Assembly: GCA_013204985.1 (NCBI GenBank)
Contig: JABMLG010000001.1
Location: 124,001 to 188,000 of the forward strand
Length of the DNA: 64,000 bases
Direction: 5' to 3'
From: Microbacteriaceae bacterium VKM Ac-2855
GTDB taxonomy: Bacteria; Actinomycetota; Actinomycetes; Actinomycetales; Microbacteriaceae
The position numbers and the translations under genes were made by a program. Positions 28,993 to 32,512 of the stretch are shown in pieces. A model generated the notes under the pieces. The model was not told the origin of the DNA, searched no databases, and saw nothing but the letters and a program-made list of their open reading frames with translations. The number at the start of each line of letters is the position of its first letter. The first letter of the stretch is position 1.

Positions 28993-29218
28993 GGCTCGGC
29001 ACGACGGGAATCGCCTCGGAGGCCGACCGTTGGACGGGCTCTCTACTCATCCGTGCAATAATTGTCAATAGGACCCGTTCGGGTCGAGGAGCGACGGCAT
29101 TCGGCTGGTCGCGGCACTCCCTCGACTTGACATGGGTCCTCGTAATGCCCACCGATCGGCAATCCTTGAACAGGGACGTCGGCCGACGGGACGCGACGGA
29201 TGGAGAGGTGCCCGGATC

Positions 29219-30505
29219 ATGGCTGCCAGAGCAACGAAGACCGCGACGGTCGAGGCCGTCGACGAGGACGTCACGACGCCCGCGAAGACGACGACGCGCA
29301 AGACCGCAACAGGGGCGGCCAAGGCTCCCCGCGGCCGCGCCGCAGCGAAGAAGTCGACCGATGTCGACGAAGAAGAGACCGTCGACGAGGCCGCCGAGCC
29401 CGATGACGCCGACGTCGAGGAGGTCGTCGAGGACGACACCGAGACGGCGACCGACGAGGTGAAGGACGAGTCGGCCGACGACGAGGTCGTGCCCGCGGTC
29501 GTGAAGCCCGAGGAGCCCCTGCCCACGGGTGCCATGGTTCTCTCCTTCGGCGGCGATGACGACGAGGTGCCGGTCTACTCGACCGCCATCACGGGCGCGA
29601 CCGCCGACCCGGTGAAGGACTACCTGAAGCAGATCGGTAAGGTCGCTCTGCTGAACGCGGCCGAAGAGGTCGAGCTCGCGATGCGTATCGAGGCCGGTCT
29701 GTTCGCCGAGGATAAGCTCGCCAACTCCCGCGATCTCAGCCCCGAGTTGACCCGTGAGCTCAAGTGGGTCGCGAAGGACGGCCAGCGGGCGAAGAGCCAC
29801 CTCCTCGGGGCGAACCTCCGACTCGTGGTCAGCCTCGCGAAGCGCTACACGGGCCGTGGGATGCAGTTCCTCGACCTGATCCAGGAAGGCAACCTGGGCC
29901 TGATCCGCGCTGTCGAGAAGTTCGACTACACCAAGGGCTTCAAGTTCTCGACCTACGCCACGTGGTGGATCCGTCAGGCGATCACCCGGGCCATGGCCGA
30001 CCAGGCGCGCACCATCCGTATTCCGGTGCACATGGTCGAGGTCATCAACAAGCTCGCCCGCGTGCAGCGGCAGATGCTGCAGGACCTGGGCCGTGAGCCC
30101 ACGCCCGAGGAGCTCTCGCGCGAGCTCGACATGACCCCCGAGAAGGTCATCGAGGTACAGAAGTACGGTCGCGAGCCGATCTCGCTGCACACGCCCTTGG
30201 GCGAGGACGGCGACAGCGAGTTCGGTGACCTCATCGAGGACACCGAGGCCGTGGTCCCGGCCGACGCGGTCGGTTTCACGATGCTGCAGAAGCAGCTCGA
30301 GTCGCTCCTCGACTCCCTCTCGGAGCGTGAGGCGGGCGTGATCCGGATGCGCTTCGGACTCGGCGACGGCATGCCCAAGACGCTCGATCAGATCGGCGAC
30401 ACGTTCGGCGTGACCCGCGAGCGGATCCGGCAGATCGAGTCGAAGACGATGGCGAAGCTTCGCCACCCCTCCCGCTCGCAGTCGCTGCGCGACTATCTCG
30501 AGTAG
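29219..30505 (+). CDS. sigA: Primary RNA polymerase sigma factor (SigA/HrdB type)
   Basis: Housekeeping sigma factor directing RNA polymerase to most promoters, including the -10 boxes listed here. The 428-aa product has a Lys/Thr-rich then highly acidic N-terminal 110 residues, region 1.2 ([16 protein letters not shown]), region 2 with the -10-reading helix ([20 protein letters not shown]), region 3 and region 4 with the -35-binding helix-turn-helix ([20 protein letters not shown]). ATG 29219 follows GGAGAGG. murT and gatD follow within 5 bases, so they may share its transcript. Confidence 0.96.
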
Positions 30506-30509
30506 GCCG

Positions 30510-31778
30510 TTGATCCGCTATGCACCGGCCGTCCTCCTCGGGAGGGCGGTCAGGGTCGCCGCGCGGATCCGCAAGCCCGGGGGCGGTTCCGCCGTGCCCG
30601 GGCTCGTGGTCAATCGCGTCGCACCGGGGTTCCTGCCGTCGGCGCTGGACGGGTTCCCGGACGGTCTCGTGATCGTCAGCGGTTCCAGCGGCAAGTCGAC
30701 CACCACGAAGATGCTGGTAGCGGTCCTGCGTGCGCACGGTCTCCGGGTGTTCACCAACCCGTCGACGGCCAACATCGCGCAAGGTCTGACGTCCGCGCTC
30801 CTCGAACGTGCCTCCGTGTTCGGTCGGATCGATGCCGATATCGCGGTACTCGAGATGGACGAAGGCCACGGCGCGCGTCTGGCGCCCCGCATCCGGCCCC
30901 GTGTCGTGGCGCTGACCAATGTGATGGTCGATCAGATCGACCGGTTCTTCGATCCGCAGATGGTCGCGCGCATGCTCGGAGTCATCGCCGAGCGAGCGAC
31001 GGAGGCCGTCGTCCTGAACGCGGACGACCGCTCGGTCGCCGACCTGGCGAATGCTCTGGGCGAGTCCGTACCGCGCTGGTACGGCGTCTCGGCCGACGTG
31101 CTCGCGCAGGCGACGCAGGGCCTCGGCTACGCCGAGACGGCTGAGGATGGCGCTGATCGCGCGACGACCGTGGTTGTGGCGACGTCGGCGGCGCAGGCGT
31201 TGATCCGCTCGGATTCGGACGACCTCCAGATCAGGCTCCCGGCGAAGGGAGTGCACTACGCCGTCGATGCCGCCGCCGCTGTCTCCACCGCCCGTGCGGT
31301 TCTGGGGGAGCGCTTCGACGCCGCCACCACCGCTTCGGCCCTCTCGGCGATCGACCCGGTCTTCGGTCGCGGAGAGATCGTGACCGTTCGCGGACACGAA
31401 GTCGAATTCGTACTGGTGCAGAACCCGGCCAGCTACCAGCTCAACATCGACGAGATCGAGGCGGGTTCCGAGCAGATCATGCTCGCGATCGGCTCCGACG
31501 TCCGCGACCCCTCCTACTTCTGGCCGGTCGACACCTCGGGGCTCGAACGCGTGCGGATCGTCTCCGGCTCGAAGGCGCAGGAGGCCGCGCTGCAGCTGCG
31601 GTACGACGGCGTGCAGATCGACGCGGTCGACGAGGATCTCGGTCGGGCGCTCGATACCTTCCTGGCGTTGCCTGCACCTGAGCGCGGACGCAAGACGATC
31701 GTCTTCTCCGCCGACTCGATGCGGCGCACCCGCGCGCATCTCGAACTGACGACGAACCGCGAGGATTCAGCCACGTGA
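30510..31778 (+). CDS. murT: MurT-like Mur ligase lacking the cysteine zinc ribbon
   Basis: Homologue of MurT, the Mur-ligase subunit that activates the alpha-carboxyl of D-Glu in lipid II with ATP so that GatD-derived ammonia can amidate it. The 422-aa product has the ATP loop VSGSSGKSTTTK (about 57-68), the TNVMVDQIDRF segment matching the canonical TNLxRDQLDRY, and a C-terminal domain with NPASYQ (usually NPAGFN) and RDPSYFWPVD, matching the canonical catalytic RDVSW-x-WD. The four-cysteine ribbon inserted in canonical MurT is missing; there is no cysteine anywhere. TTG 30510 gives the normal N-terminus. Its stop overlaps the gatD start (GTGA). Confidence 0.85.
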   Translation: MIRYAPAVLLGRAVRVAARIRKPGGGSAVPGLVVNRVAPGFLPSALDGFPDGLVIVSGSSGKSTTTKMLVAVLRAHGLRVFTNPSTANIAQGLTSALLERASVFGRIDADIAVLEMDEGHGARLAPRIRPRVVALTNVMVDQIDRFFDPQMVARMLGVIAERATEAVVLNADDRSVADLANALGESVPRWYGVSADVLAQATQGLGYAETAEDGADRATTVVVATSAAQALIRSDSDDLQIRLPAKGVHYAVDAAAAVSTARAVLGERFDAATTASALSAIDPVFGRGEIVTVRGHEVEFVLVQNPASYQLNIDEIEAGSEQIMLAIGSDVRDPSYFWPVDTSGLERVRIVSGSKAQEAALQLRYDGVQIDAVDEDLGRALDTFLALPAPERGRKTIVFSADSMRRTRAHLELTTNREDSAT

Positions 31779-32512
31779 CCGCTCAGGTGACCATCGCCGC
31801 CGTGCTGCCCGACCTTCTCGACAGCAACGGAGACGCAGCCAATGCCCGGGTGTTGAGGGCTCGCCTGGTGTGGGCCGGCGTCGAAGGCGTCGAACTCGTG
31901 GCGCTCGCGCGCGCCGAGGACTGGGCCTCTGCCGCGCCGCCCGCGGCGCTCATCGTGGGTACCGGAGCGTCCCACGATCTTCCGACGGCGCGGGAAGCCC
32001 TGCTCGCCCATGGAGACCTGCTCAGCGGCTGGCACGCCGACGGTACGGAGATCGTCGCGATCGGCGGCGGCTGGGAACTGCTCAGCGAGGGTACGCAGAC
32101 GCCTGACGGTTTCGTCGGCGGAGTCGGCCTCTTTCCCGGACACGCGGTGATGGGAGCCGATCGAGTGACGGATGACGTCGTCGTGGAGTCGGCCTTCGGT
32201 ACGCTCGTCGGATTCGAGAACCATCTGCGGCGCTTCGCCGATCTACCCGCCGGCAGTGCGCTCGGAACGGTGCGCTACGGCGTGGGCAACGGTGACGGAA
32301 CCGAGGGTTTCGTGAGCGGCCGACTACTCGGATCGCATCTGCACGGACCGCTACTGGCGAAGAATCCCGCGCTCGCCGATGCGATTCTCGGTCGGATCGC
32401 CGGACGGTCGGGGTTCGGTTACTCCAACCAGAACAGTGACGCGCGATCCGCGGATGAAACAGCGCGAGCCGCCCGCGATGTGATCGCGAGGCGGCTCGGC
32501 CTTCAGAAGTAG
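31775..32512 (+). CDS. gatD: GatD-like glutamine amidotransferase fold without catalytic cysteine
   Basis: Homologue of GatD, the class I glutaminase partner of MurT. The 245-aa product keeps the fold and landmarks: DRVTDDVVVE, AFGTLVGFENH, a GNGDGTEG loop and LLGSHLHGPLLAKNP with the catalytic-type His. But the nucleophile elbow that reads ICGGYQ in canonical GatD reads IGGGWE here: Gly97 replaces cysteine, and the protein has no cysteine at all. Glutamine hydrolysis by the normal mechanism is therefore not possible. GTG 31775 overlaps the murT stop. Either the pair no longer amidates or it uses another amine donor. Confidence 0.85.
   Translation: MTAQVTIAAVLPDLLDSNGDAANARVLRARLVWAGVEGVELVALARAEDWASAAPPAALIVGTGASHDLPTAREALLAHGDLLSGWHADGTEIVAIGGGWELLSEGTQTPDGFVGGVGLFPGHAVMGADRVTDDVVVESAFGTLVGFENHLRRFADLPAGSALGTVRYGVGNGDGTEGFVSGRLLGSHLHGPLLAKNPALADAILGRIAGRSGFGYSNQNSDARSADETARAARDVIARRLGLQK

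Follow-up and report, generated by a model that had tools for sequence, protein, structure and literature searches.

Introduction

What can a MurT/GatD pair still do when its glutaminase subunit lacks the nucleophile cysteine? This question is raised by two overlapping genes in a 64,000-nucleotide stretch of the genome of Microbacteriaceae bacterium VKM Ac-2855, referred to below as the window. Microbacteriaceae are known for group B peptidoglycan, in which an amino acid is carried on the alpha-carboxyl of D-Glu, a linkage that requires a carboxyl-activating ligase, and this type of cross-linking has long served as a taxonomic mark. Among the matches listed for the open PMC literature, outside which most subscription journals lie, no enzyme is named for placing the first bridge residue on D-Glu, and neither MurT/GatD nor a CofE-like protein is linked to group B walls.

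A cysteine-free pair behind sigA

The two genes follow sigA at a distance of 4 bases and share a GTGA overlap (Table 1). The translations agree with what the initial annotation had read from the letters, namely that both proteins are free of cysteine (a count of 0 in MurT and 0 in GatD), that the genes overlap behind sigA, and that the glycine codon GGC stands where GatD should have its nucleophile; they also uphold the ATP loop and the RDxSxxW-type motif claimed for MurT. Within the latter, Asp333 aligns with the conserved MurT aspartate that is D349 in Staphylococcus aureus, and the best solved relatives of both the MurT and the GatD profiles are the MurT/GatD chains of S. aureus and Streptococcus pneumoniae.

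Table 1. Features of the sigA-linked MurT/GatD locus, in window coordinates
Feature	Position	Strand	Basis or remark
sigA (primary sigma factor)	29132..30505	+	Translation; upstream neighbour marking the slot
MurT-like ligase of 422 aa without Cys or zinc ribbon	30510..31778	+	TTG start, TGA stop
P-loop GSSGKS (MurT residues 58-63; canonical GTNGKT)	30681..30698	+	Alignment
RDPSYFW (MurT 332-338), includes Asp333	31503..31523	+	Alignment
GatD-like subunit, 245 aa, no Cys	31775..32512	+	GTG start
Gly97 codon GGC, at GatD nucleophile Cys position (IGGGWE)	32063..32065	+	GatD alignment
His190 codon (LHGP), catalytic histidine position	32342..32344	+	GatD alignment; kept here, variable in class

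Pfam recognizes Mur_ligase_M (49.9 bits, cut-off 24) and MurT_C (28.3 bits, cut-off 25) in the window MurT, with no match to Mur_ligase_C or to the N-terminal Mur_ligase domain, and GATase_3 (54.3 bits, cut-off 27) in the window GatD. The NCBIfam equivalog models give scores far below their thresholds, with 83.9 and 83.6 bits against a cut-off of 800 for MurT, and 81.9 and 47.1 bits against cut-offs of 450 and 400 for GatD. A profile built from the window's class of MurT (A1) scores the window protein at 610 bits, the window being the first row of that profile. A search of the source genome (26 contigs totalling 4.7 Mb, with a completeness of 100%) for a second MurT/GatD, which the initial annotation had seen as a way to test its reading, found a single MurT_C match, the window's own, and three other GATase_3 matches that are partial, at 24-32 bits, two of them above the cut-off of 27. 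A contig search with the window GatD returned one relative, a metagenome-assembled genome (MAG) carrying a canonical pair.

Fate of the GatD cysteine

Is the missing cysteine peculiar to this strain? A MurT_C search of 249 Microbacteriaceae genomes gave matches in 171, and the GatD alignment was built from 70 loci of these 249 genomes together with one MAG locus and the window. The rows fall into the window's own class, a second cysteine-free class (class II), and two cysteine-positive classes ('can' and 'cys4'). The nucleophile is absent from the window, from 32 further window-class pairs and from 10 class II pairs, the odd locus L058 included, and it is replaced by Gly, Ala or Thr in the window class, by His and once by Gln in class II, and by Gly in L058; sigA lies upstream in all 43 of these rows except L058. 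Cysteine and histidine are both present in all 29 'can' and 'cys4' rows, and sigA in none of the 29 loci. Extra loci supplied 32 further cysteine-free GatDs, one with Ser at the cysteine position (35 loci were read, of which the misframed L170 was dropped and two belonged to genomes already counted), and a last batch, from which four wrong-frame rows were left out, added seven more: five named carriers and G123, all with Gly, and G005, which has Asn and no sigA in its locus.

Aligning the family against its neighbours, as the initial annotation had suggested, gave the following counts: the cysteine is found in 0 of the 82 loci of the cysteine-free classes (43 + 32 + 7), and both cysteine and histidine in all 48 other pairs, 29 from the family and 19 of 19 from other families. 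The window's congeners in the sample, four genomes (L158-L161), all have Gly at this position and keep the histidine. The loss of the cysteine is fixed clade-wide and is no local oddity. The statement that the LHGP histidine remains holds for the window itself (His190), but does not extend to the class, where it is kept in 19 of 33 aligned window-class rows and is Gln in all 21 window-class genomes of one large genus (genus label g85).

Two observations may be recorded on their own account. The class II GatDs of L035, L036, L041, L046, L047, L050-L052 and L054 lack both Cys and His, and their pairs sit behind sigA. In G015, a strongly reduced genome (locus L169, on a 927,303-base contig), the pair is still present and linked to sigA, and its GatD has Ser where the cysteine would be.

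What MurT has kept and what it has lost

K62, E115, D117, E118, N137, N170, D173, R287 and D333 are retained in all 43 window-class MurT rows, K62 being the P-loop lysine, E115 the counterpart of the Mg-contacting glutamate of S. aureus, and D333 the aspartate of the triad. The P-loop reads GS[NS]GKS in the class, its two threonines having become serine in 98% and 91% of the rows, and alterations also affect the canonical ADGRDxSWLWD segment. When the window is compared with four congeners, dN/dS is 0.154-0.212 for MurT and 0.339-0.431 for GatD. The pair is under purifying selection, and the description of these genes as conserved and not decaying stands, with dN/dS below 1 in both and the ATP-site residues of MurT in place. 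A pseudogene reading was rejected on the same dN/dS values.

The absence of the four-cysteine zinc ribbon, which had been taken as a sign of new function, did not survive comparison: CxxC is missing as well from the MurT of 23 'can' pairs read in the family and of 19 pairs outside it, so that cysteine-positive pairs of the order also do without the ribbon, whereas the MurT consensus of class II, whose GatD has lost the cysteine, has four cysteines, two of them invariant. The missing ribbon is not diagnostic. The class II MurT keeps GTNGKT and mostly the four cysteines, has largely lost the ADGRDxSWLWD segment and has no RDxS motif, and it may act otherwise. In S. aureus, MurT D349 completes the GatD triad, and GatD C94S, GatD C94G and MurT D349N are each reported to abolish amidation (PMC6113224). 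Since the corresponding S. pneumoniae substitution, D355A, is reported as merely reducing activity (PMC6085368), the retention of the triad aspartate in the window class counts as weak evidence.

Distribution of the clade

The A1 profile matched 205 of the 249 family genomes at E <=1e-12 and 156 at <=1e-130, with the next match at 6.4e-123. In an order-wide sample of 258 genomes it exceeded 550 bits in 11 of the 19 own-family genomes and in none of the 239 others, whose best score, 415 bits, is at the level of canonical pairs, and in a phylum-wide sample of 296 genomes four own-family genomes reached more than 550 bits and the best other genome 396 bits. The family and order searches scored the best 6-7 candidates in most genomes, which leaves absences there less firm than in the MurT search of genus g85, where all candidates were scored.

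Phylogeny agrees with this division, as the window clade (43 rows, two genomes being represented twice) is monophyletic with a support of 0.998 on MurT and 0.926 on both proteins, and class II together with L058 forms a separate clade (0.993 and 0.997, respectively). The canonical pairs of the family intermingle in the tree with those of other families. The window class, class II and class III are joined only at a support of 0.137 on both proteins and are not joined on MurT alone. A class II profile (A2) gave 15 strong matches in the 249 genomes, and the nine that were fetched, L058 aside, all have sigA upstream. Named members of the family sample are Clavibacter, Herbiconiux, Microbacterium, Agreia and Mycetocola. 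In the genomes sampled, the cysteine-free clade is confined to Microbacteriaceae.

Sorted by gene content, 156 of the 249 genomes reach window level (G247 by profile score alone, and G220, which is 5% contaminated, with a class II pair as well), 14 have class II only, 37 a CofE-like gene, 22 a cysteine-positive pair only, and 20 something else. Among these 20 are ten with no window-class, class II, cysteine-positive or CofE-like gene (G019, G022, G049, G051, G062, G119, G121, G146, G174 and G223), the A1 match near 1e-13 in G119, G174 and G223 being probably another Mur ligase; four with low or split scores behind sigA (G015, G018, G068, G222); three that are divergent (G005, G053, G123); and three left unsorted (G038, G099, G184). 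The simple equation of group B walls with the cysteine-free pair fails: carriers include group B genera, but 37 genomes have the CofE-like gene, 22 only a cysteine-positive pair and 10 neither. Should the species behind those 22 and 10 genomes have group B walls, their bridge would need a different starting enzyme.

The slot behind sigA and its other occupant

The last 119 residues of sigA were present in all 30 family genomes searched, and the gene following sigA was read in 30 chosen genomes of the family. In ten of the 16 without a real A1 match, sigA is immediately followed by a gene for a 230-aa member of the F420_ligase family; of the remaining six, one (G020) has the CofE-like gene behind ectB and five show neither arrangement. 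None of ten genomes with only a cysteine-positive pair has either kind of gene in the slot, G015, G018 and G222 have a divergent MurT resembling that of the window class, and G053 has none of these gene kinds there. One of the ten genomes with only a cysteine-positive pair (G151, locus L104) has instead, after sigA, a full Mur ligase in which each of the three Mur_ligase domains is present.

A profile of the CofE-like protein (A4) gives strong matches (>356 bits) in 37 of the 249 family genomes, and a MurT match occurs in none of these 37, as against the 205 genomes with an A1 match; the hypergeometric chance of zero overlap, ignoring kinship, is 2e-37. Directly upstream of the CofE-like gene lies sigA in 59 of 60 loci (L078-L080, L082, L083, L085-L089 and 50 further), and in the sixtieth (G020, L167:445-2499) the order is sigA, ectB, encoding a diaminobutyrate transaminase, and then the CofE-like gene. 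This ectB is above its equivalog cut-off (601.8 against 552.2 bits), and no ectB stands between the two genes in G100, G161 or G211, which share the genus label of G020. Three of the slot proteins match PF01996 at 50.1, 55.9 and 47.7 bits (cut-off 25), while the protein, with 31.4 bits where 180.65 are required, is not a CofE equivalog; no solved structure is matched by its sequence, and it has no Pfam family in common with MurT/GatD.

Both the window-class pair and the CofE-like gene occur within each of the genus labels g7, g9, g13, g53, g57, g74, g76, g79, g84 and g85, and exchanges are therefore frequent. The CofE-like gene is present in 98 of the 119 genomes of g85 (one as a partial match), a window-class MurT in all 21 genomes without it, and a MurT in none of four CofE-like controls. 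The pair and the CofE-like ligase, at the same slot, are in near-complete mutual exclusion. The two gene kinds need not exclude each other, because G053 and G123 have both: a weaker CofE-like gene (153-156 bits) directly precedes a divergent MurT and a GatD without cysteine, behind sigA in G123 (Gryllotalpicola protaetiae, L284) and away from sigA in G053 (L058, L168). In other families of the order, 21 of 239 genomes have a CofE-like domain of lower score (150-196 bits), lying within frames of 809-1016 aa; three of these frames (L252-L254) have an apparent asparagine-synthase part, and Pfam scored one of them at 236.5 bits for Asn_synthase and at 19 bits, below the cut-off, for F420_ligase. 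The 73 outside genomes that have an A1 match at 1e-30 include none of these 21.

It is conceivable, though slightly less likely than not, that the slot behind sigA is an exchangeable wall-type cassette, in which sequence-distinct enzymes each attach their own first bridge residue to the alpha-carboxyl of D-Glu, so that swaps between species change the genus-defining peptidoglycan type. These enzymes would be the cysteine-free MurT/GatD, the cysteine- and histidine-free MurT/GatD, and the CofE-like ligase, which in one case is accompanied by a diaminobutyrate transaminase and in one by a third MurT/GatD.

Wall types of the carriers

The window-class pair, with Gly in GatD, is found in Clavibacter californiensis (G109), Mycetocola zhujimingii (G149) and Agreia sp. 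COWG (G238). The CofE-like side of genus g85 includes Microbacterium sediminis (G579) and one further genome that I take to be M. testaceum StLB037. Two CofE-like genomes tentatively fit Paramicrobacterium, whose wall is reported as type B2 with D-ornithine, and the same source gives D-ornithine, L-lysine or diaminobutyrate for Microbacterium species, varying inside some clades (PMC10757982). Such variation is the pattern that would be expected if the slot decides the bridge residue, a predicted link with few named genomes behind it. On the side of the pair, a genome matched to Rhodoluna lacicola (G010) carries it, and the wall of that species is reported as B2beta with diaminobutyrate (PMC4156110); so do G132 and G205, whose plasmids equal Herbiconiux plasmids in length and over the first 4000 bases, the genus being described as B2gamma with D- and L-diaminobutyrate (PMC10011130). 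Intrasporangium calvum, which has a group A wall, is reported to carry glycine on the D-Glu alpha-carboxyl (PMC3035309), and this counts against the argument, an amino acid at that site being found in group A too.

Proposed function

On balance, the pair is probably an amino-acid ligase that acts on the alpha-carboxyl of D-Glu, starts the group B bridge and no longer uses glutamine. Its kept residues suggest that MurT would bind ATP and, in the manner of Mur ligases, phosphorylate the alpha-carboxyl of the position-2 D-Glu in the peptidoglycan precursor. The attacking amine would then be an amino acid and not ammonia, namely the residue with which the group B bridge begins, and in the carriers with a published wall type presumably a diaminobutyrate, while GatD, devoid of its nucleophile, would stay as the structural subunit that MurT needs for activity, a need that has been shown in S. 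aureus. For this species I infer the substrate, the amine, the order of steps and the role in group B walls. Two observations point to an amino-acid ligase, the alternation with an unrelated amide ligase and the single case of an adjacent diaminobutyrate transaminase, and the permanent loss of the cysteine, together with this trading of places, suggests the attachment of a bridge-starting amino acid.

Experiments on S. aureus bear directly on this proposal, since MurT without GatD is reported as inactive, and MurT with GatD C94G as having lost activity with glutamine, retaining unaffected activity with ammonia at pH 8.5, and being inactive at pH 7.5 whatever the donor (PMC3266927). From this behaviour, a natural Cys-to-Gly GatD would be expected to be the structural partner of a MurT that uses an outside amine. 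Might that amine be ammonia, the pair still making D-isoglutamine with GatD as a dead glutaminase? The activity of the mutant at pH 8.5 is what such an ammonia-dependent amidase would display, but its inactivity at pH 7.5 is not. Amidation would moreover block the D-Glu alpha-carboxyl of group B walls, the very site of the bridge, and the replacement by a CofE-like gene, once beside a diaminobutyrate transaminase, is easier to reconcile with an amino acid than with ammonia, all of which makes the ammonia reading unlikely.

I consider it similarly improbable that the pair works on a different carboxyl, such as that of the residue at position 3, of hydroxyglutamate or of a wall polymer, and attaches an amino acid or amine there. 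In favour of this, the ADGRDxSWLWD segment, near which contact with the stem peptide has been proposed (PMC6113224), is altered in the window class and largely lost in class II, but the MurT/GatD complexes described in the papers cited here act on the D-Glu alpha-carboxyl, and the core of MurT is kept in the window class. That the pair is a decaying or moonlighting pseudoenzyme, without ligase activity and serving complex stability or regulation, is very unlikely, for although GatD evolves faster than MurT and its histidine varies, MurT is under purifying selection with its nucleotide-site residues kept, and relatives replace the gene pair instead of simply losing it.

If the amino-acid ligase reading is true, an amidotransferase has been turned into an amino-acid ligase through the loss of its glutaminase. 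A candidate pair, an unrelated candidate substitute and an either-or pattern within one large genus make the question of what starts the bridge directly testable.

Comparison with known systems

The closest known system is the MurT/GatD lipid II isoglutaminyl synthase (S. aureus 6GS2, S. pneumoniae 6FQB), with which the window pair has in common two domains in each protein, adjacent genes, the ATP site and the triad aspartate of MurT, and from which it differs in having no nucleophile cysteine in GatD, a P-loop of GS[NS]GKS and not GTNGKT, a changed segment before the triad aspartate, scores far below the equivalog cut-offs, and a place behind sigA. MurC-F and the archaeal pMur ligases give weak profile matches to the window MurT, which unlike them matches MurT_C, has neither Mur_ligase_C nor the N-terminal Mur_ligase domain, and comes with a GatD partner. 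In Mur ligases, an amino acid is the amine that attacks the ATP-activated carboxyl. The likeness to CofE, the F420-0:gamma-glutamyl ligase (PF01996), belongs to the alternative gene of the slot, which lies above the Pfam cut-off and is not a CofE equivalog. The S. aureus GatD C94G mutant resembles the window GatD in having Gly at the same position and in needing the MurT complex to use an external amine (PMC3266927); however, it is a single made mutation, whereas the change in Microbacteriaceae is clade-wide and accompanied by changes in MurT.
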